From Demequinaceae bacterium UBA4004 (GTDB taxonomy: Bacteria > Actinomycetota > Actinomycetes > Actinomycetales > Demequinaceae): a stretch of 12,578 bases of DNA. Position 1 is the first letter of the stretch; each line of letters begins with the position of its first letter. Position numbers and translations under genes: made by a program. The notes under the pieces are model-generated. The model saw only the letters and a list, made by a program, of their open reading frames with translations. It ran no database searches and was not told where the DNA came from. The stretch covers positions 2,560-15,137 of the forward strand of contig DGBM01000111.1 of NCBI GenBank assembly GCA_002384765.1, read 5' to 3'. Below are positions 3,227-12,578 of the stretch, piece by piece.

Positions 3227-3464
3227 GTGAACCCCCGGCAACGACTCGCGGCCCTCTGGCATGACGAGCTGCTCGCCTTCGTGCGCGGCGGCTGAGTCGT
3301 CGAGCTCCACCGACATGAACAGTTCGCGCACCTTCGCGAAGGAGGGGAACGGTTCACCGTCACCCCCGAGCTCCCTTGCACACACCACTGAGCTCGCCGC
3401 CGGCCAGGACCCGCGGAACACCTACCTCCGCTGGTGGACCGGCGCCCTCAACGCGCTCACATGA
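3227..3464 (+). pseudogene. Possible decayed small gene with an in-frame stop and a frameshift
   Basis: GTG 3227 starts a plausible frame (NPRQRLAALWHDELLAFVRG) that ends at TGA 3294-3296. The same frame continues in protein-like fashion (VVELHRHEQFAHLREGGERF) to a stop near 3384. A shifted frame then reads ELAAGQDPRNTYLRWWTGAL to TGA 3462-3464. Reading through one stop and one shift would give a single small protein of about 75-80 aa. No homologue is recognised, and no ribosome site precedes 3227. It could equally be chance open sequence in GC-rich DNA. Confidence 0.3.
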
Positions 3465-3758: not shown

Positions 3759-4748
3759 TCATCGAGTCACGCCCCCGCGGTCAGGGCCAGCAGGACCGAC
3801 GACCGGACCCGTCGCGTCGACTGTCTCTGTCGGCGCCAACGTCCGGCGCAGCTCGAGCAGTCGGGTAGCGATGCTCCGCTCCTGGACCGCGAGCACATCG
3901 GAACCCTCGAAGGACGGCAGGTGCGGGGTCACCTCCCGCAATGCAAGATCGTGCAACTCAACGAGAGCCTCAAGCACGTCTCGTTCGGGGCGGCGCAGCG
4001 ACTGTGCGAACTCGCTCACCCGGCGAAGTTCGCCTAACCACTCCACCATGTCCATCGTCGAAGGTGTGACGGACTGCGCCTTCACGAGCGCCTCAACCCC
4101 GCTCCCACCCTGGTCGGGCGCCGGCGTCTCGCTGTCGAAAACCGTGCGACCGCGACGGTCGAGCACCACGAGCCCACTTTCGGGGGCGTCGGTCTCGACT
4201 GCGGCGACGACCGCCCTTGTCGCGTCGAAGCCCGCCTGGTGCTCTTCCCCGTCCGTGAACCGCGAAGCACGACCCGCCTGGATGCGTGACGCGTGCGTCG
4301 ACGCCAACGTCAGCAGACTCTCGCGCGCCGGCACACCGACCATGATCACGCGCGTCCGAAACCCCTGCTCGGCGAACAGCCGTAGAGTTCCCGTGACCGC
4401 GTCCGGGTTCTCGAACGACCCCTCCAGCAGCACCGATCGTCGATGATCCCGCGCATACGCGATGCAGGCACCCACCCACTGCGCCGCCGCGGCCGCCAGC
4501 TCAACCTCCGCGTCAGCAGTGCCGACCAGTTCCGTGTATCGCGGATGGAAGGCGCGCAACTCATCACCCCTCACGACAGCAAGACGATGCTGCGCTGCGG
4601 ATTGGATTCTCGAGATGGCCTGTGCGCGGCCTGACCCCTGCTGCCCCGACAAGATCACAAACTCGGGCTCAACGTCCTCAACGTCGGCGAAGACGAGCGG
4701 GCGAATGTCGCGGTCAAAGACCCGCTCAAGCTCATCGGACGGTGTCAC
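3759..4748 (-). CDS. Zeta-toxin-like kinase with an altered P-loop
   Basis: A 329-aa protein with the zeta-toxin layout: FVILSGQQGSGRAQAISRI (residues 30-48, P-loop position), VVRGDELRAFHPRYTELVG (58-76, the family's D-x-x-R/K-x-x-H-P-x-Y stretch, D62), SVLLEGSFENPD (105-116), and SRIQAGRASRFTDGEEHQAG (154-173, the Arg-rich nucleotide/substrate-binding segment). Zeta toxins phosphorylate UDP-N-acetylglucosamine and block wall synthesis. The Walker A lysine and the following Ser/Thr are Arg41 and Ala42 here; the codons CGC and GCA were checked at 4628-4623. Activity is therefore doubtful or altered. The C-terminal 110 residues form a predicted helical extension. GTG 4748 directly follows the antitoxin stop (TAAGTG), so translation is coupled. 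Confidence 0.8.
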   Translation of the reverse strand: MTPSDELERVFDRDIRPLVFADVEDVEPEFVILSGQQGSGRAQAISRIQSAAQHRLAVVRGDELRAFHPRYTELVGTADAEVELAAAAAQWVGACIAYARDHRRSVLLEGSFENPDAVTGTLRLFAEQGFRTRVIMVGVPARESLLTLASTHASRIQAGRASRFTDGEEHQAGFDATRAVVAAVETDAPESGLVVLDRRGRTVFDSETPAPDQGGSGVEALVKAQSVTPSTMDMVEWLGELRRVSEFAQSLRRPERDVLEALVELHDLALREVTPHLPSFEGSDVLAVQERSIATRLLELRRTLAPTETVDATGPVVGPAGPDRGGVTR

Positions 4749-5003
4749 TTACGAGCCCTGCCGCACTTTATCGAGCTCCGACTGCAACTCGGCGATCGCG
4801 CCAGCAATCGCCGTCGCGTCGTAGCCGTCAACCGACTGAACGAACGAGCGCACCTGGTGAACTTGCGCGGCGGCATCTTCCGTGGGTATGCGGCCGCTCC
4901 GAGCTTGCGCAAGGAGCGCCGCGATCGTCCGATGGGCGACCGCGTCGAGCGCGTCAGATGCTGGGGCTTCCCGCAAACGCCACGGCGAAAAATCGACACG
5001 CAT
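4749..5003 (-). CDS. Probable antitoxin of the zeta-like toxin
   Basis: An 84-aa, largely helical protein. Its C-terminal half, DGYDATAIAGAIAELQSELD (residues 59-78), looks like a long amphipathic helix, and residues 21-57 predict two more helices. An excellent ribosome site AAGGAGGG lies 4-5 bases before ATG 5003. Its stop abuts the toxin GTG, the standard antitoxin-first order. Zeta antitoxins (epsilon and analogues) are small helical proteins that occlude the toxin nucleotide site. The sequence does not resemble canonical epsilon, so the assignment is by position and size. Confidence 0.72.
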   Translation of the reverse strand: MRVDFSPWRLREAPASDALDAVAHRTIAALLAQARSGRIPTEDAAAQVHQVRSFVQSVDGYDATAIAGAIAELQSELDKVRQGS

Positions 5004-5575: not shown

Positions 5576-8350
5576 ATGCTCGAAGCTGACCGCCTGCCCG
5601 CCGAAGCGCGTGCACGGAAACTCATCGACGAGCAGCTCGAAGCAGCCGGATGGGTAGTGCAGGACCGCGCCGCGATCAACCTCTTTGCGGGCGTTGGCGT
5701 AGCAGTGCGTGAGTTCATCATGGCCTCGGGGCATGGACGGGCCGATTACTTACTCTTCGTAGACAAGCAGGTCGTCGGAGTCATCGAGGCGAAACCGGTC
5801 GGCACCTCCCTGTCAGGCGTCGAGTGGCAATCCGCGATGTATGCCACCGGCCTTCCCGATGCGCAGGCTAGGCGGGCGGTGGTTACCGACGGCCGTCTCC
5901 CGTTCGTGTTCGAGTCGTCAGGAGTCGAGACCCATTTCACGAACGGGTTCGACCCGCATCCGCGAGCGCGTCGAGTCTTCGCGTTCCCGCAACCGCCAAC
6001 CCTCGCACGGGCGGCCCGCGAAGCCATTGAGAGGCCGGGCGCCGCGACCTGGCGCGCCCGCGTCCACTCTCTCCCCGAGCTCGACCGCACAAGTCTGCGA
6101 CCAGCGCAGATCGATGCGGTCAACGGGGTGGAGCAAGCGCTGCGTGAGCAGAGGTATACGCGATCCCTCATCCAGATGGCCACGGGGGCGGGCAAGACAT
6201 TCACCGCCGTGACCGAGGCTTACAGGCTTCTCGCTTACGGCGGATTCACTCGCATCCTTTTCCTCGTCGACCGCAACAACCTCGCAGACCAGACGCTCGC
6301 TGAGTTCCAGAACTACCGCACCCCTGGCGACGGCCGGCGATTCACGGAGCTGTATCCCGTGATGAAGCTAACAAGCGCTGGGATGCTGCAGTCGGCCAGC
6401 GTGGTGATCTCGACGATCCAGCGCGTCCACCGTGTGCTCCAGGGCAAGGACGTCGAGGATCGCGACGATCCCGGTATCGACGGTTTCGTCCCCGACGTTC
6501 CGGTGACGGTGGCATACAACCATGCGCTCCCCCCGGAAGCGTTCGACCTGGTTATCGTGGACGAGGCGCATCGCTCTATATACGGCGTGTGGCGAGGGGT
6601 GCTCGAGTACTTCGACGCACACATCGTGGGGCTCACAGCGACGCCCGGCAAGCAGACGTTCGGGTTCTTTCAGCAGAACCTGGTTTCGGAATACACCTAC
6701 CCAGAGTCCGTCGCGGATGGAGTGAACGTCGACTTCGACATCTATCGCATCAAGACTCGTGTGAGCGATGAAGGCGGAGCGATCGAGGCGGGCACGGTCG
6801 TTCCCAAGGTCGACCGTCGCACGCGAAAGCAACGACTCGAGACGCTCGATGAGGATCTCCAGTACACCGCGACGCAGCTCGACCGAGCGGTTACGAACAT
6901 GTCTCAGTTGCGGACGATCCTCGAGACCTACCGCGACCGCATGCCCGAAATTTTTCCTGGTCGCCGCGTCGTGCCAAAGACGCTTATCTTCTGCAAGGAC
7001 GACAATCACGCCGAGACAGTGGTAAACCTTGCGCGCGAAGTGTTCGGCAAAGGCAACGACTTCGCAGCCAAGATCACCTACAACGCGAAAGATCCGAAGG
7101 GTCATTTGCAGGCGTTCCGCACCTCGCCGACGATGCGCGTCGCGGTCACCGTCGACATGATCGCCACCGGAACAGACGTCAAGCCGCTCGAGTGCGTCTT
7201 CTTCCTACGCGATGTGCGCAGCGCCCAGTACTTCGAGCAGATGAAAGGCCGGGGCGCACGAACGATCCCATCCGCAGACTTCCGAGCAGTCACCCCGGAT
7301 GCCGCACAGAAGACCCGCTTTGTGATCGTCGACGCCGTCGGGGTCACCGAGCACGACTTCGTCGAACCGCCGCTGAATCGAGATCGCGGAGTCTCGCTGC
7401 AAAAGTTGCTTGCGAAGGCCGCGGACCTCTCCATCACCGAGGACGAGACCGCGACCCTTGCTTCGCGCCTGTCGGCCCTCGAGCTACAGCTCACCGCGTC
7501 GGAACGCGCCGAGCTCGATGAGGTCGCCGGGGGATCGCTGCGCAACGTCATTCGCGGACTCGTCGACGCCGTCGATCCCGATACTCAGGCCGGTTCGCTG
7601 CCGGAGGTCGACGACGCGTCGCCCGAATCCGCGAGGGCTCGGGAAGCAGCGATCGCTGAGCTGATCGAGCGCGCCATCGAGCCACTCGCATCGAGCCCTG
7701 AGTTGCGCTCGCGCATTCTCGAGCTGCGCCGCACACACGACCAAGTGATCGACGAAGTGACGGTCGATGAGCTCGTCGATGCCTACGGCGTGGTCGACAC
7801 GAACCATGCGCGGTCGATCGTCGAATCGTGGCGCGGTTACCTCGCTGAGCATCGCAGTGAGATCAGCGCAATACAGGTGCTCATGGAAGCGAAGACTCGG
7901 CACGTGCCGTTCGCGGCCATCGCGGAACTCGCCGACCGCATTGCCCGGCCCCCGCACAACTGGACGGTCGACCTCATCTGGCACGCATACGAAGCGGTAC
8001 AGGTCGAACGCGTCAGGCCAAATGATCACGCGAGACTCACCGACCTCGTCTCCCTTCTGCGGTACGAGTTGGGCGAGGACACCGAACTCGTCCCGTATGC
8101 CGACGTCGTGCGAGCACGTTACGACGACTGGCTCGATCGTCAGGGCCTCGCCGGTGTCGCGTTCACGGATGATCAGCGCTGGTGGCTCGATCGAATGGCA
8201 GACGTCATCGCAAACTCGGCCGGTCTATCAGATGCCGATCTCGATGGCGCACCCTTCACCGAGCGCGGGGGAGTCGATGGTGCCATACGCGTCCTCGGCG
8301 ACCGCGCCGGTACGCTCATCGACGAACTGAACGTGGAGCTGACCGCGTGA
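5576..8350 (+). CDS. hsdR: Type I restriction endonuclease subunit R
   Basis: A 924-aa motor/nuclease subunit. The N-terminal PD-(D/E)xK nuclease is visible as GRADYLLF (D57) and GVIEAKP (E71, K73). The SF2 motor follows: MATGAGKT Walker A (201-208, K207), VIVDEAH (327-332), LTATP (353-357), a second RecA lobe with KTLIFCKDDNHAE (468-480), MIATGTDVKPL (528-538), and motif VI QMKGRGAR (555-562). A C-terminal helical region (~600-924) is the usual surface for binding the methylase, like that of EcoEI-type R subunits. Length is normal and no stop or shift is seen. HsdR cuts unmethylated DNA after ATP-driven translocation, in complex with HsdM and HsdS. Its stop overlaps the hsdS GTG by four bases (GTGA). 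Confidence 0.97.
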   Translation: MLEADRLPAEARARKLIDEQLEAAGWVVQDRAAINLFAGVGVAVREFIMASGHGRADYLLFVDKQVVGVIEAKPVGTSLSGVEWQSAMYATGLPDAQARRAVVTDGRLPFVFESSGVETHFTNGFDPHPRARRVFAFPQPPTLARAAREAIERPGAATWRARVHSLPELDRTSLRPAQIDAVNGVEQALREQRYTRSLIQMATGAGKTFTAVTEAYRLLAYGGFTRILFLVDRNNLADQTLAEFQNYRTPGDGRRFTELYPVMKLTSAGMLQSASVVISTIQRVHRVLQGKDVEDRDDPGIDGFVPDVPVTVAYNHALPPEAFDLVIVDEAHRSIYGVWRGVLEYFDAHIVGLTATPGKQTFGFFQQNLVSEYTYPESVADGVNVDFDIYRIKTRVSDEGGAIEAGTVVPKVDRRTRKQRLETLDEDLQYTATQLDRAVTNMSQLRTILETYRDRMPEIFPGRRVVPKTLIFCKDDNHAETVVNLAREVFGKGNDFAAKITYNAKDPKGHLQAFRTSPTMRVAVTVDMIATGTDVKPLECVFFLRDVRSAQYFEQMKGRGARTIPSADFRAVTPDAAQKTRFVIVDAVGVTEHDFVEPPLNRDRGVSLQKLLAKAADLSITEDETATLASRLSALELQLTASERAELDEVAGGSLRNVIRGLVDAVDPDTQAGSLPEVDDASPESARAREAAIAELIERAIEPLASSPELRSRILELRRTHDQVIDEVTVDELVDAYGVVDTNHARSIVESWRGYLAEHRSEISAIQVLMEAKTRHVPFAAIAELADRIARPPHNWTVDLIWHAYEAVQVERVRPNDHARLTDLVSLLRYELGEDTELVPYADVVRARYDDWLDRQGLAGVAFTDDQRWWLDRMADVIANSAGLSDADLDGAPFTERGGVDGAIRVLGDRAGTLIDELNVELTA

Positions 8351-9603
8351 GTTGGGAGATCGAGACGCTCGCAGACATCGCTCGAGGCGGACTCTTCACC
8401 GACGGTGACTGGGTCGAATCAAAGGACCAGGATTCGAGTGGGGGAGTGCGGCTGACTCAACTCGCTGACGTCGGAGTAGGGGTCTTTCGTGATCGAAGCA
8501 ATCGGTGGATGCGTGAAGATCAAGCCCTTCGACTCAACTGTACTTTTCTTCGTCCACACGACATCCTTATTGCCCGGATGCCCGATCCCATCGGGCGCGC
8601 ATGTCTTGTCCCTCACGGGATCGAGCGCGCCGTGACAGTCGTCGACGTGGCCGTTCTTCGAATCGCTAGACAGGATCTCGATCCGCGATTCGTTATGTGG
8701 GCGCTCAACTCTCCGAACGTGCGCGCCAGGGTCGAGTCCATGCAGTCAGGGACTACTAGGAAGCGCATCTCCCGCCGAAACCTGGCTGCCATCGGACTCT
8801 CGGTGCCGCCTGTGATCGAACAGCAGCGAATTGTGGACATGATCGAAGATCAATTCTCCCGACTCGACGCCGCCGAGCGAGGGTTGGATGTCGTGATAGC
8901 GCGGACGGCGTCACTAGTGCAGCGGGCGCTCGCGGACGCAAGCTTTGGCGCAGAGCTGGTGCCGCTTGCGGACCTAGCGGCAATTCAGTCCGGCATTCAG
9001 AAACAACCGAAGCGCCGACCGAGCAGAAACACAGCGCCATTTCTGCGAGTAGCCAACATAACTGCTTCGGGACTTGATCTCGCTGAACTTCATGAGGTCG
9101 AGATGTTCGCTGGCGACCAGGAACGGTACCAACTGCTGCTGGGCGATCTACTTGTTGTCGAAGGTAACGGTAGCGCCAACCAGATCGGCCGCGCTGCTCT
9201 CTGGGACAACAGCGTGCCCGGGGCGGTGCATCAAAACCATCTGATTCGCGTACGTCCTGGACCACGGTTGCTCCCGGCGTATCTCGAGGCGGTTTGGAAC
9301 GCACCTCAGCTTCGTCGACAGCTCTCCAGTGTCGCTAGCTCATCAAGTGGCCTCTACACTTTGAGCGTTCGTAAGTTGAGCGCCCTCGGGATTCCCGTGC
9401 CGTCGCGAGCGCATCAGGCCGAAGTGGTGCAACGCATTGCACTGGTCCGCGAGGTGGCGGGTCGCCTACGCGCGGAGGTCATGGCAGCCCAACATCGTTC
9501 AAAGTTGCTCCGCAGGGCCGTTCTCGCTTACGCGTTTTCAGGACAGCTGACGGGAGCGACATTCGACGCTGCTCGGATCGAAGAGTCCTTAGCGGCGCAA
9601 TGA
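8347..9603 (+). CDS. hsdS: Type I restriction-modification specificity subunit
   Basis: A 418-aa HsdS with two target-recognition domains, about residues 1-150 and 205-350. They are separated by a helical spacer, EQQRIVDMIEDQFSRLDAAE (158-177), and followed by its counterpart HQAEVVQRIALVREVAGRLR (356-375) and the AYAFSGQLTG tail (395-404). Conserved domain ends are visible (LAAIGLSVPPVIEQQ in the first, SALGIPVPSRAHQAE in the second). It directs HsdM and HsdR to a bipartite DNA target, each half read by one domain. GTG 8347 overlaps the hsdR stop, with GGAG 8-10 bases upstream; a longer in-frame extension to 8182 would run inside hsdR and is rejected. The recognised sequence cannot be read by eye. 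Confidence 0.95.
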   Translation: MSWEIETLADIARGGLFTDGDWVESKDQDSSGGVRLTQLADVGVGVFRDRSNRWMREDQALRLNCTFLRPHDILIARMPDPIGRACLVPHGIERAVTVVDVAVLRIARQDLDPRFVMWALNSPNVRARVESMQSGTTRKRISRRNLAAIGLSVPPVIEQQRIVDMIEDQFSRLDAAERGLDVVIARTASLVQRALADASFGAELVPLADLAAIQSGIQKQPKRRPSRNTAPFLRVANITASGLDLAELHEVEMFAGDQERYQLLLGDLLVVEGNGSANQIGRAALWDNSVPGAVHQNHLIRVRPGPRLLPAYLEAVWNAPQLRRQLSSVASSSSGLYTLSVRKLSALGIPVPSRAHQAEVVQRIALVREVAGRLRAEVMAAQHRSKLLRRAVLAYAFSGQLTGATFDAARIEESLAAQ

Positions 9604-9652
9604 TACGGACGCCGGGCGCCATGCAAACCTCGTTTACTCATTGCCAGAACAT

Positions 9653-9664
9653 GTAAATATTTAC
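9653..9664. promoter_or_regulatory. 12-base AT-rich palindrome, candidate fic operator
   Basis: GTAAATATTTAC is a perfect palindrome about 50 bases upstream of the fic start and just upstream of the -35-like hexamer. A related TTTTTACAC follows at 9671-9679. The position suits binding by a small winged-helix dimer, plausibly the C-terminal domain of the Fic protein itself. Confidence 0.5.
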
Positions 9665-9672
9665 TCCGAATT

Positions 9673-9703
9673 TTTACACGTTCTCGCGTCGTGTGCGTAG
9701 ACT
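9673..9703 (+). promoter_or_regulatory. Candidate leaderless promoter of fic
   Basis: TTTACA (9673-9678) and TAGACT (9698-9703, TAnnnT type) have a 19-base spacer. A transcript would start about 7 bases after the -10, at the GTG codon 9710. No ribosome site precedes that codon, as expected for the leaderless mRNAs common in actinobacteria. Confidence 0.5.
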
Positions 9704-9709
9704 TTGCAT

Positions 9710-10825
9710 GTGACATGGCAGCCAAACGAGCCGTACAATGAGCTTCCCGCATTGCCTCCCAACACCGCGGTCGAGACGGTCGCCGTCCTCAAGGCGGCTA
9801 TCGAGGCGCGTGCGCAGGTCGCGGCCCTCGACCAGGCGACTCGGCGCATGCCCAACCCGGCGGTACTGCTCAACGCTATTCCGATCCTCGAAGCGCAAGC
9901 GAGCTCCGAGATCGAGAACATCGTGACGACAACCGACGAACTGTTCCGCTACGCGCAAGACGAGTCAGAACTCGCGACGCCCGAGACGAAAGAGACGCTG
10001 CGCTACCGCTCTGCACTGTTCGCGGGGTTGGAGAGTGTGCGATCGCGCCCGCTCTCGGTCACCACCGCGACCCAGATCTGTTCGATCATCCAGCAACGCG
10101 AGATGGATGTGCGCGATCTGCCCGGCACGATCATCGCAAACCCCGCGACACGACGCGCGATCTACACCCCGCCGCACGGGGCAGCTGTCATTCGCGGGAA
10201 GCTTGCCAACTGGGCGGACTTCATCCATGGGGCGCGGTCGGTCGACCCGCTCGTCCGGATGGCAATCGCGCACTACCAGTTCGAGGCGATCCACCCCTTC
10301 GCCGACGGAAACGGAAGGACCGGTCGCATCCTGAACATACTGATGATCGTGGATGCCGGCCTGCTCCAGTCGCCGATCCTTTACCTGTCGCGATACATCA
10401 TCGTTCATAAGGACGACTATTACCGGCTGCTTCTCGAAGTTACCCGCAGCGGTGTGTGGGAGGAGTGGATCCTGTTCATGCTCGACGCCGTCCGCGAGAC
10501 CGCCCGGGTGACGCTCGCGAAGATCGACGCCATTCAAGCGTTGCAGGTGAACGTGCGTGAACAGGTGCGCGAGACAAGCGCGGGCGCGAATTCCGATCTG
10601 CTGGATGTGCTGTTCGAGCAGCCGTATTGCCGGATCAGCAACGTGATAGCGCGTTGCGGGGTCTCTCGGCCAACGGCGACCAAATGGCTGAACGAGCTTG
10701 TTGCGACCGGGGTGCTCCGCGACATTCGCGTGGGTCGCGAGAGACTATTCATCAACTACGCGTTCTTCGAGATCCTGTTGCGTGACGAGCCCGACGACAC
10801 GCCTCGAGACGCGACTCTCTTCTGA
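9710..10825 (+). CDS. fic: Fic family protein AMP-transferase with C-terminal winged helix
   Basis: A 371-aa protein of the Shewanella SoFic type. The typical N-terminus is WQPNEPYNELPALPP (residues 3-17). The inhibitory helix motif SSEIEN ([S/T]xxxE[G/N], 65-70, E69) precedes the Fic core. The active-site motif HPFADGNGRTGR (195-206, catalytic H195, with N201 and R203) is complete. Residues ~295-350 form a winged helix (CGVSRPTATKWLNELVATG as recognition helix). Fic enzymes transfer AMP from ATP to Ser, Thr or Tyr hydroxyls on proteins, and the inhibitory Glu keeps them off until released. The target is unknown. GTG 9710 was chosen for family alignment and promoter position; TTG 9704 is possible. 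It lies between hsdS and hsdM, and hsdM follows after 24 bases. Confidence 0.93.
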   Translation: MTWQPNEPYNELPALPPNTAVETVAVLKAAIEARAQVAALDQATRRMPNPAVLLNAIPILEAQASSEIENIVTTTDELFRYAQDESELATPETKETLRYRSALFAGLESVRSRPLSVTTATQICSIIQQREMDVRDLPGTIIANPATRRAIYTPPHGAAVIRGKLANWADFIHGARSVDPLVRMAIAHYQFEAIHPFADGNGRTGRILNILMIVDAGLLQSPILYLSRYIIVHKDDYYRLLLEVTRSGVWEEWILFMLDAVRETARVTLAKIDAIQALQVNVREQVRETSAGANSDLLDVLFEQPYCRISNVIARCGVSRPTATKWLNELVATGVLRDIRVGRERLFINYAFFEILLRDEPDDTPRDATLF

Positions 10826-10849
10826 CGCAAGCCCTCGGAGACCTTCCTG

Positions 10850-12328
10850 ATGCCTGACTCTCGCCGCCTTGTCGACAAACTCTGGTCGTACGCGAACGTG
10901 CTGCGCGACGACGGCGTCGGCACGATCGACTACACGGAGCAGCTGACCTATCTGCTCTTCCTCAAGATGGCTCACGAGCGGGCCACACGACCGCTTAGAC
11001 CCGAGAAGATAGTTCCCGACGAGTACTCGTGGCAGCGACTGCTCGATGCCGACGGCGTGGAGCTAGAGCTTGAATACACGCGCATCCTGCAAGGGCTCGG
11101 GCGCGAGACCGGCACGCTCGGCGTGATCTTCCGCAAAGCGCAGAATCGGGTTCAGGATCCCGCGAAGCTGAAGCGCCTTATCCATGACCTCATCGACGCG
11201 GAGCAGTGGTCGCAGACCGGGGTCGACATCAAGGGTGACGCGTACGAGTCGCTGCTTGCGAAGGGCGCAGAAGACGTCAAGTCGGGTGCGGGGCAATATT
11301 TCACTCCTCGCCCGATCATTGATGCCATCGTTGACTGCATTCGTCCGACTGTCGAGGACACGGTGACTGACCCCGCGTGCGGCACGGGCGGGTTCCTGTT
11401 GCAGGCGTACGAGCATGTCGCGCGCTACGCGTCGTCCTTCACGCCTCCGCAGCGTGAGCACCTCGGGACGGGACTCGTGCATGGCGTCGAGCTGGTCGAC
11501 GGCACCGCGCGTCTGGCCGCGATGAACCTTCTGCTGCACGGCGCCGGCGAGGCCAATGGTCCGTCACTCATCGAGGTAAAAGATTCGCTTATCGCGGACC
11601 CCGGGCGCCGGTGGAGCGTGGTGCTTTCTAACCCGCCGTTCGGTCGCAAGTCATCGTTGACGATGGTCGGTGCCGACGGGCGCGAAGCGCGCGAGGATCT
11701 CGAGATCGAGCGCCAGGACTTCGTCGTCACGACGTCGAACAAGCAACTCAACTTCCTTCAGCACATCGCGACGATCCTCGACATCAACGGGCGGGCTGCG
11801 GTCGTGCTACCCGACAACGTGCTGTTTGAAGGTGGAGCCGGCGAGACCCTGCGTCGGCGGATGCTGAAAGACTTCGATCTGCACACGATGCTTCGGCTGC
11901 CGACGGGCATCTTCTATGCCGGCGGTGTCAAGGCGAACGTGCTGTTCTTCGACAAGAAGCCGGCGGGTGAGCGTCCCTGGACGTCGAAGCTCTGGATCTA
12001 CGATCTGCGCACGAATCAGCACTTCACCCTCAAGCAGAATCCGCTGACGCGTGCCCACCTTGACAACTTTGTGTCGTGCTTTGGTGTCGATCGCGAGTCC
12101 CGCGTCGAGACCGAGCAATACAAGTTTTTCGACTATGAGGAGCTGGTTGCGCGGGACAAGATCAATCTGGACATCACGTGGCTGAGAGACGAGTCGCTCG
12201 AAAACCTTGACAACCTCCCCGCGCCCGAGGTCATCGCGCGCGAGATCGTGGAGGACCTGACCGCAGCACTGGCGGAGTTCGAAACGGTCGCGGCCGCGTT
12301 GGAATCGGGCGCCGCGAAGAGTTCCTGA
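10850..12328 (+). CDS. hsdM: Type I restriction-modification DNA methyltransferase subunit (N6-adenine)
   Basis: A 492-aa methyltransferase. The N-terminal helical domain (residues ~5-120, WSYANVLRDDGVGTIDYTEQ onward) is the HsdM_N type. The catalytic domain contains GQYFTPRP (148-155), the S-adenosylmethionine motif DPACGTGG (174-181) and the catalytic NPPF (261-264). Length and layout are normal and no lesion is seen. With HsdS it methylates adenines at the target, protecting host DNA, and it is required for HsdR cleavage. GGAG (10837-10840) lies 9 bases before the ATG. It is co-directional with fic and only 24 bases away, so it is probably transcribed from the fic promoter and not from the hsdR-hsdS unit. 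Confidence 0.97.
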   Translation: MPDSRRLVDKLWSYANVLRDDGVGTIDYTEQLTYLLFLKMAHERATRPLRPEKIVPDEYSWQRLLDADGVELELEYTRILQGLGRETGTLGVIFRKAQNRVQDPAKLKRLIHDLIDAEQWSQTGVDIKGDAYESLLAKGAEDVKSGAGQYFTPRPIIDAIVDCIRPTVEDTVTDPACGTGGFLLQAYEHVARYASSFTPPQREHLGTGLVHGVELVDGTARLAAMNLLLHGAGEANGPSLIEVKDSLIADPGRRWSVVLSNPPFGRKSSLTMVGADGREAREDLEIERQDFVVTTSNKQLNFLQHIATILDINGRAAVVLPDNVLFEGGAGETLRRRMLKDFDLHTMLRLPTGIFYAGGVKANVLFFDKKPAGERPWTSKLWIYDLRTNQHFTLKQNPLTRAHLDNFVSCFGVDRESRVETEQYKFFDYEELVARDKINLDITWLRDESLENLDNLPAPEVIAREIVEDLTAALAEFETVAAALESGAAKSS

Positions 12329-12375: not shown

Positions 12376-12395
12376 TCTAGGACTGTTGACCTAGA
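12376..12395. repeat. Hairpin downstream of hsdM without a T-run
   Basis: TCTAGG (12376-12381) and CCTAGA (12390-12395) pair as a 6-base stem around an 8-base loop. No T-run follows on either strand, so it is not a standard terminator. It lies next to the T-loop-like sequence and could be part of an attachment site. Confidence 0.4.
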
Positions 12396-12402
12396 CGCGA
12401 CG

Positions 12403-12417
12403 GCGGGAGTCGAACTC
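12403..12417 (-). other. tRNA/tmRNA T-loop-like sequence, possible attachment-site remnant
   Basis: On the minus strand this reads GAGTTCGACTCCCGC, followed by CGTCGCG. TTCGACT fits the TTCRANY loop of tRNAs, and TTCGACTCCCGCC resembles the tmRNA 3' end as I recall it. The five bases on the loop's 5' side do not pair well with CCCGC, and no cloverleaf surrounds it, so it is not a working tRNA. Short 3'-tRNA copies are what integrases leave at element borders. Confidence 0.3.
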
Positions 12418-12436
12418 AGGCGGGCGTTTTCCGCCT
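12418..12436. repeat. Short hairpin AGGCGG/CCGCCT
   Basis: AGGCGG (12418-12423) and CCGCCT (12431-12436) form a 6-base GC-rich stem with a 7-base loop containing TTTT. It may contribute to termination after hsdM, but no T-run follows the stem. Confidence 0.35.
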
Positions 12437-12457
12437 TGCCGCGAGATTCGGGAAAAA

Positions 12458-12479
12458 CCGCGTGATTACGCGGAATTTT
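12458..12479 (+). terminator. Probable rho-independent terminator of fic-hsdM
   Basis: CCGCGT-GATT-ACGCGG is a perfect 6-base GC-rich stem with a tetraloop, followed by AATTTT and preceded by AAAAA. It therefore could act in both directions. It lies about 130 bases after the hsdM stop, with no gene between. Confidence 0.55.
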
Positions 12480-12532
12480 CGCTTTCCTCGACGGGGCTCA
12501 AACGGGCTCGATCGGGGTGAATCTCGACCAAG

Positions 12533-12551
12533 TGTGGGCAGAATGTGGGCA
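12533..12551 (+). repeat. Direct repeat TGTGGGCA x2, candidate recombinase arm site
   Basis: Two exact copies (12533-12540 and 12544-12551) lie 11 bases apart, about one helical turn. The phasing suits two protein molecules bound on one face of the DNA, as at integrase or excisionase arm sites. This is inferred from spacing only. Confidence 0.35.
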
Positions 12552-12562
12552 CTTCCGTCACC

Positions 12563-12578
12563 GATGTCCTGAGACATC
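12563..12578. repeat. Inverted repeat at the window edge
   Basis: GATGTC-CTGA-GACATC is a perfect 6-base inverted repeat with a 4-base centre, running exactly to the window end and possibly longer. It could be the operator of, or the end of, something beyond the window. Confidence 0.4.

Follow-up and report, generated by a model that had tools for sequence, protein, structure and literature searches.

A SoFic-like gene with a putative operator of its own in the hsdS-hsdM junction of a Demequinaceae type I restriction-modification locus

We analysed a 12,578-nucleotide (nt) stretch of contig DGBM01000111.1 from Demequinaceae bacterium UBA4004, referred to here as the window, which carries a type I restriction-modification (R-M) locus with a fic gene between hsdS and hsdM. 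We consider it likely that this gene encodes a self-regulated SoFic which, together with its own promoter and a two-dyad operator, was inserted in the hsdS-hsdM junction, and that hsdM came partly under the same control. The R-M set is complete, with HsdR, HsdS and HsdM all present and open, and the gene order is hsdR-hsdS (4-nt overlap), 106 nt, fic, 24 nt and hsdM, in agreement with the overlap and spacings given by the first-pass annotation of this DNA. The features of the locus, in window coordinates, are as follows.

5576..8350, forward strand: hsdR, type I restriction subunit (ResIII helicase, EcoEI_R_C), from the open reading frame (ORF) and domain searches
8347..9603, forward strand: hsdS, specificity subunit, with a GTG start and a 4-nt overlap with the hsdR stop
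9649..9681, forward strand: O1 operator dyad, ACATGTAAA-N15-TTTACACGT, 0 mismatches to the actinobacterial SoFic consensus
9673..9678, forward strand: putative -35 box TTTACA, inside the right half of O1 and 19 nt ahead of the -10 box, aligned by eye
9689..9711, forward strand: O2, second dyad, TCGTGTGCG-N5-TTTGCATGT, covering the -10 box and the start codon, 7 nt past O1
9698..9703, forward strand: putative -10 box TAGACT, 6 nt before the GTG start, aligned by eye
9710..10825, forward strand: fic, SoFic-like, 371 amino acids, with Fic_N, Fic core and C-terminal winged helix
10826..10849, forward strand: 24-nt spacer between fic and hsdM, aligning with the hsdS-hsdM junction of the related locus L172
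10850..12328, forward strand: hsdM, type I N6-adenine methyltransferase

The protein has the domain order Fic_N, Fic and a SoFic-like C-terminal winged helix-turn-helix (wHTH), and carries a catalytic HPFADGNGR at residue 195 and an inhibitory SSEIEN at residue 65, that is, both SoFic motifs, HxFx(D/E)GN(G/K)R and the N-terminal (S/T)xxxE(G/N). In the alignment of relatives the positions of both motifs were invariant, except for 198, which is variable, and 68, which is nearly invariant. The active site, inhibitory motif and winged helix read earlier from the sequence were borne out by motif, domain and structure comparison. The PADLOC SoFic model matched with 384.8 bits (E 1e-115), and the NCBIfam equivalog NF046030 matched over nearly the full length with 510.6 bits, below its curated cut-off of 550 bits; we call the window Fic SoFic-like on the strength of Pfam, PADLOC and structure rather than of the NF046030 equivalog. 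Members of the SoFic family (S. oneidensis SO_4266, E. coli SoFic) are single-gene anti-phage toxins of class II Fic. According to the available part of PMC12249575, E. coli SoFic is a dimer whose toxicity needs the C-terminal domain, a 47-residue antitoxin encoded downstream restrains it, and the silencing and triggering of this toxic family are an open question. A 2023 paper on a Coxiella Fic (PMC10628234) states that a demonstration of DNA binding was still lacking for SoFic.

Comparison with related loci supports the view that fic is an insertion, seemingly a recent one, into an ordinary R-S-M operon. The nearest HsdM relative, L172 (89-90% identity), groups with the window in the HsdM tree (support 99/95), has no fic and shows a gap of 43 nt between hsdS and hsdM, and two more loci with 90% HsdM identity, L244 and L245, also lack fic, with gaps of 130 and 159 nt, respectively. 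The 24-nt spacer of the window aligns with the L172 junction (CAAGCCCT...AGACCT...ATG), at a level that 0 of 2000 shuffles equalled, which suggests that fic entered just upstream of the original hsdM leader and that the spacer probably is this leader. Long branches in the HsdM tree (L185, L213, L156 and L212) led us to use only the pairing of the window with L172; the tree as a whole gave 15 label changes for 14 cargo labels (minimum 13), with the labels of L174, L206 and L208 being tentative.

The relatives of Fic tell the same from the other side. The nearest one read in its genomic context, L243 (80% identical), has no hsd neighbours, and hsd genes were detected near the Fic relative in 2 of 80 genome loci, namely L055, where hsdM is 5 kb from the SoFic gene, and L067 from Shewanella gaetbuli. 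No hsd genes were found near SoFic in 20 Microbacteriaceae regions or in 6 regions from the genus of genome G602, L243 included. All these counts are lower bounds: profiles grown from the Hsd proteins of the window may overlook hsd genes that have diverged or lie far away, and a stretch of 18 kb or more was available for just 49 of the 80 genome loci. In the 398 Microbacteriaceae genomes, SoFic-level matches (E < ~1e-80) occurred in 33 and HsdM matches (E ≤1e-60) in 8, with no genome having both, where chance co-occurrence would be expected in less than 1 genome; the corresponding numbers for 164 genomes from the genus of G602 were 8, 3 and 0. Two proteins from the same source, P0018 (Fic, 78%) and P0134 (HsdM, 84%), each given with a longest contig of 9229 bases, perhaps represent a second fic-hsdM locus and were not counted. 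The L067 genes run hsdR-SoFic-hsdM-hsdS; fic is preceded by an operator of CGA type and separated from hsdM by 21 nt.

The first-pass annotation had proposed to look for a conserved hsdS-fic-hsdM order in related genomes. We rejected such a unit, as the closest hsd relatives (L172, L244 and L245) are without fic and others carry unrelated genes in the same place. It had also named, as what would speak against a meaningful layout, homologous loci that lack fic or have it at random positions, and this was found in part: hsd homologues occur without fic or with other genes, and fic homologues are rarely near hsd genes.

We sought HsdM relatives in 398 Microbacteriaceae, 396 order, 396 phylum and 164 single-genus genomes (genus of G602), in addition to plasmids, and read 43 loci (8 from the family, 15 from the order, 16 from the phylum, 2 from plasmids and 2 from the genus). 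Seven of the 43 were dropped; S and M could not be assigned in L184, L186, L214, L215, L217 and L218, and the order was R-M-S in L134. In all 36 usable loci hsdM came after hsdS, with hsdR ahead of hsdS in 34 (it was not seen in L210 and L211, where the fetched stretch or the contig ends). The junction was a gap no longer than 159 nt in 10 of the 36 loci, held at least one called ORF in 24 and was unclear in 2 (L208 and L216). These ORFs are mechanical calls, of which the one in L210 and the antisense ones in L129 and L132 are probably spurious, while L174 looks frameshifted. As for the annotated order R-S-fic-M, its anatomy was correct; among the close relatives that we examined, R-S-X-M is the ordinary arrangement, X standing for variable cargo.

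Pfam was run on 30 of the slot ORFs, a part of the set, and 7 of the 30 had no match (one each in L128, L133 and L207, two each in L182 and L180). The others encode Mrr (L173, L177, L183 and L185), GmrSD (L178), AbiEi/AbiEii (L207), Abi_2 (L129, L130 and L131), DUF4357 (L129, L155 and L182, the L155 gene being recorded as a GIY-YIG nuclease), DUF488 (L133), PIN with DUF433 (L211), PIN (L128), AAA (L205) and DUF4258 (L206). In L156 (7316-8915), on a Rhodococcus plasmid, the cargo is HIRAN with weak HipA-like pieces. Other Fic-domain genes were seen in the slot of L185 (4778-5989, a non-SoFic Fic) and L213 (4521-5522, reverse strand, a RhuM-Fic fusion). The GIY-YIG match in L155, the HipA pieces in L156 and Fic_N in L185 are below the Pfam cut-off. 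Taken together, the comparison supports the hsdS-hsdM junction as a variable cargo slot for defence genes in related actinobacterial type I loci. In 15 of the 24 loci with cargo there is a 4-nt overlap between the hsdS stop and the first cargo ORF, which is therefore probably on the hsdRS transcript. Unlike this overlapping cargo, fic lies 106 nt from hsdS and has a regulatory region of its own.

Within the 106 nt, a repeat search detected a 19-nt inverted repeat at 9643-9687, at which O1 is the sole site of the window with 4 mismatches or fewer. No terminator was predicted between hsdS and fic; the inverted repeat was considered as one and dropped, being A+T-rich and conserved as an operator. 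The GTG at 9710 lies 6 nt past the putative -10 box, as in many of the aligned relatives, and in actinobacteria such a spacing marks leaderless mRNAs, so the fic mRNA is likely leaderless. The TTG start at 9704, given by ORF calling, was dropped in favour of this GTG, where the aligned relatives start. A palindromic site is thus found over the putative promoter of fic itself, as in CccR of Yersinia pseudotuberculosis, a Fic protein with a C-terminal helix-turn-helix (HTH) that binds, as a dimer, two 10-bp inverted repeats 26 bp apart near -35/-10 and represses its own promoter (PMC9755527, in its available part).

The array is not private to the window. We surveyed 108 distinct fic genes for the dyad and kept 97, having dropped 9 in which the start motif was not found and 2 with a short upstream region. 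An O1-type dyad (9-nt arms, inner 15) with at least 8 of 9 positions complementary was upstream of 53 of the 97 genes, window included; as controls, 4 of 97 stretches taken from within these genes had one, as did 2 of 97 upstream regions after a single shuffle. The arms were exactly complementary in 24 of the 97 genes. The half-site is ACRTGTAAA in most actinobacterial genes and ACRTGTTAA in some, and is near WYRTGTCGA in most proteobacterial ones. Over the 67 of 99 genes in which O1 was clear, a second dyad (inner 5) at offset +40 from the O1 start was the best of 522 combinations of offset and spacing, with a mean score of 8.19 versus a background of 4.38 (standard deviation 0.57).

Genome-wide, the actinobacterial O1 (at most 2 mismatches) was found in 23 of 26 SoFic genomes, many of which had also given motif loci, so that this search tests uniqueness and not presence. 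By coordinates, all 26 sites were beside SoFic, one upstream in each matched genome and a second one just behind the gene in 3. A reversed-pattern control matched in 1 of the 26 SoFic genomes and in 1 of 30 comparison genomes. The O1 itself was present in 3 of these 30, of which 27 had been searched earlier without a SoFic-level match and 3 (G402-G404) were never searched for SoFic. The proteobacterial operator form was found in 14 of 15 genomes, a set selected for earlier sightings of the site; each of the 14 had 1 to 3 copies, and positions were checked in part. Two groups of genes came from outside motif discovery: in 8 of 8 plasmid SoFic loci, hand-picked from the 40 hits listed, the best dyad beat at least 99.4% of 500 shuffles, with O2 visible by eye in 7, and in all 6 same-genus loci fetched (of 8 found) there was a site with at most 1 mismatch at fic. 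We conclude that many SoFic genes of Actinobacteria and Proteobacteria have the two-dyad array upstream, and that it is nearly unique in the genomes searched.

Some further observations concern these loci. A second operator copy (at most 3 mismatches) lies just behind fic in 5 of 99 SoFic loci (L115/L222, L109/L223, L007/L224, L032 and L062), and in genome G023 both 33-nt copies are identical; the second copy may act on the following gene, in looping or in the exchange of cassettes. In L230 and L231, plasmid SoFic genes overlap a downstream recombinase gene by 4 nt and are next to repC.

SoFic itself is the expected binder, since the array accompanies its gene in different phyla and on different replicons and is scarce elsewhere. 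The recognition helix differs strongly between the proteins of 35 AAA-type and 34 CGA-type operators (4 of 354 windows scored as high, itself included), and this co-divergence of helix and operator is suggestive, supporting evidence only, because operator class also follows phylogeny. By analogy with CccR, SoFic is predicted to repress its own promoter, with hsdM co-controlled. The first-pass annotation had offered, as one model, Fic as a controller that represses or times the methylase. The winged helix, the regulatory region before fic and the idea of a transcription regulator are kept from that model; the operator lies on the promoter of fic itself. As it also accompanies SoFic genes without hsd genes nearby, autoregulation seems to be its role, and hsdM would be influenced just through its downstream position.

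The following course of events would fit these observations. A SoFic gene plus its own promoter and two-dyad operator would have entered the hsdS-hsdM junction of an ordinary R-S-M operon. A SoFic dimer would bind O1 and O2 through the C-terminal winged helices, occluding -35, -10 and the start codon and so keeping SoFic low, and the class II inhibitory helix, known for SoFic, would restrain AMPylation. Phage infection might lower or displace SoFic, or relieve the inhibition, and fic would be derepressed; AMPylation, judging from the literature on SoFic, would then arrest the infected cell, which would make SoFic an autorepressed toxin of abortive infection. No promoter of its own was predicted for hsdM, which begins 24 nt past fic, so its transcripts are expected to come from the fic promoter as well as from hsdRS read-through; hsdM would most likely be the second gene of the SoFic transcript, and its level may partly track SoFic autorepression.

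Several points weigh against this reading, in addition to the overlap, noted above, between the genomes searched and those that gave the motif. In the survey, 32 of 99 fic genes had no dyad above the stricter cut, and 9 of the 108 genes (start motif not found) and another 2 (short upstream) could not be used. In the window, O2 has a weak, degenerate left arm, and a general promoter scan gave sites at 9710-9739 (forward) and 9627-9600 (reverse), the chosen -35/-10 pair not being among them. Three proteobacterial sites with 1 mismatch are on other contigs. Of the three comparison genomes with O1, two have good orphan sites and no SoFic-level match, L219 (G355) at position 3317 and L220 (G007) at position 3307; perhaps these are scars of a lost cassette. 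Furthermore, the downstream antitoxin known for E. coli SoFic (available part of PMC12249575) means that another control exists; the 24 nt behind fic in the window leave no room for a small antitoxin gene, and none was sought elsewhere.

The strongest competing explanation, to which we give somewhat less than an even chance, is that SoFic and hsdM are passive neighbours: SoFic would be a self-contained cassette in a permissive slot, and hsdM would be served by read-through from hsdRS and be indifferent to SoFic. The scarcity of hsd genes near SoFic (2 of 80 genome loci), the unrelated genes in the slot of relatives and the 10 of 36 related loci without cargo all agree with it. However, hsdM follows fic by 24 nt with its leader kept and without a predicted promoter, which makes some co-transcription hard to avoid, and L067 of Shewanella independently has SoFic 21 nt before hsdM. 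We consider it rather improbable that another protein of the host, acting as the regulator of SoFic, binds O1 and O2. SoFic as the binder is itself a prediction and two genomes have orphan sites; against this, the geometry of the array is kept in two phyla and on plasmids, the site was not found elsewhere in the 26 SoFic genomes, the recognition helix varies with the half-site and CccR offers a precedent.

The two remaining explanations tie SoFic to the Hsd proteins themselves. The Hsd complex might hold SoFic inactive until a phage anti-restriction protein frees it, in the manner of PrrC, which also has its gene within a type I locus and is an anticodon nuclease activated when EcoPrrI is inhibited (PMC12707154, in its available part). 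This guard arrangement, the other model of the first-pass annotation, is in our view quite unlikely despite that precedent, since SoFic is seldom with hsd genes (again 2 of 80) and has an inhibitory motif of its own, and neither the sequence nor the genome comparison gave any sign of a partner or of PrrC-like coupling to the Hsd complex. Type I HsdR cuts only with HsdM and HsdS, so delaying hsdM would bring no classic benefit of the kind known for type II C proteins. Although a wHTH protein and an operator upstream of fic-hsdM would suit a controller that evolved here to time the methylase, this consideration, the absence of fic from the nearest relatives and the same operator before SoFic genes without a nearby hsdM make it the least probable of these explanations. 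The reading of a self-regulated SoFic inserted in the slot is the one that we retain.

Among the closest known systems, CccR is likewise a Fic toxin with a C-terminal HTH that acts as a dimer and has a palindrome on its own promoter near -35/-10; it differs in being a type VI secretion system effector and a distant relative, with only 29% identity to SO_4266 at 45% coverage and a different half-site sequence and spacing (PMC9755527, same part). Compared with SO_4266 and E. coli SoFic, the window SoFic sits inside a type I operon and has no downstream room for an antitoxin like that of E. coli H397, and the operator described here is not mentioned for E. coli SoFic in the portion available of that source (PMC12249575). 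In the RRDM island, darTG2 lies between hsdS and hsdR and a separate repressor, RptR, acts on a promoter of the locus, and the authors propose a hotspot (PMC12255303, partial text). It shares with the window a toxin system inside an hsd locus and promoter repression, whereas RRDM belongs to E. coli and other Gammaproteobacteria, uses the hsdS-hsdR slot and has a separate small repressor; here the slot is hsdS-hsdM and the toxin itself is likely the repressor. Corynebacterium diphtheriae VA01 has a variable region in which subunits of a type I R-M system occur with a nuclease and a Fic/DOC protein, another actinobacterial defence region that combines fic with type I genes; the available part of PMC5379612 does not state a placement between hsd genes or a SoFic identity.

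The surroundings of the locus hold a second toxin system, 0.6 kb from hsdR, which consists of a Zeta/PezT-like toxin gene at 3759-4748 (reverse strand; Zeta_toxin, 86.5 bits) and, in the antitoxin position ahead of it, an 84-residue ORF at 4749-5003 (reverse strand) with no Pfam match. A ParA-type partition ATPase (401-1108) and an NrdH-like glutaredoxin (1473-1802), both below the NCBIfam cut-offs, suggest a plasmid or an integrative element. At 12390-12578 the sequence resembles, by eye, the 3′ end of a tRNA or an attachment site, followed by repeats (gtgggcagaatgtgggcac); ARAGORN predicted no tRNA there.

A toxin within a type I locus is already known (darTG2, PrrC); the new part, as far as the open-licence literature goes, is the hsdS-hsdM slot with SoFic and the SoFic operator, as neither such an operator nor a fic gene between hsdS and hsdM turned up in the search listings and passages from that literature, which did include three papers naming Fic, hsdM and hsdS (PMC11062135, PMC4420470 and PMC3339403). 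The data support the layout, the slot, the insertion and the conservation and specificity of the operator; binding and repression by SoFic, derepression during infection and partial control of hsdM are predictions. It may be that newer SoFic structures (PDB 9tc4, 9tch, 9tcl and 9tb0) show DNA binding already; our structure comparison, with a library reaching to April 2026, did not return them. The slot is a practical place to seek new defence genes, beside the hsdS-hsdR slot proposed in Gammaproteobacteria, and a defined operator with the same geometry in two phyla makes DNA binding by SoFic directly testable. We raise, as a tentative and rather doubtful generalisation, that SoFic proteins are toxin-repressors acting through a four-half-site operator, such that insertion before hsdM would tie in the methylase supply and a loss of repression triggered by phage would raise the toxin and the modification subunit at once. 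If this is true, L067, with SoFic 21 nt before hsdM, would be a second, independent case of a SoFic-hsdM circuit.

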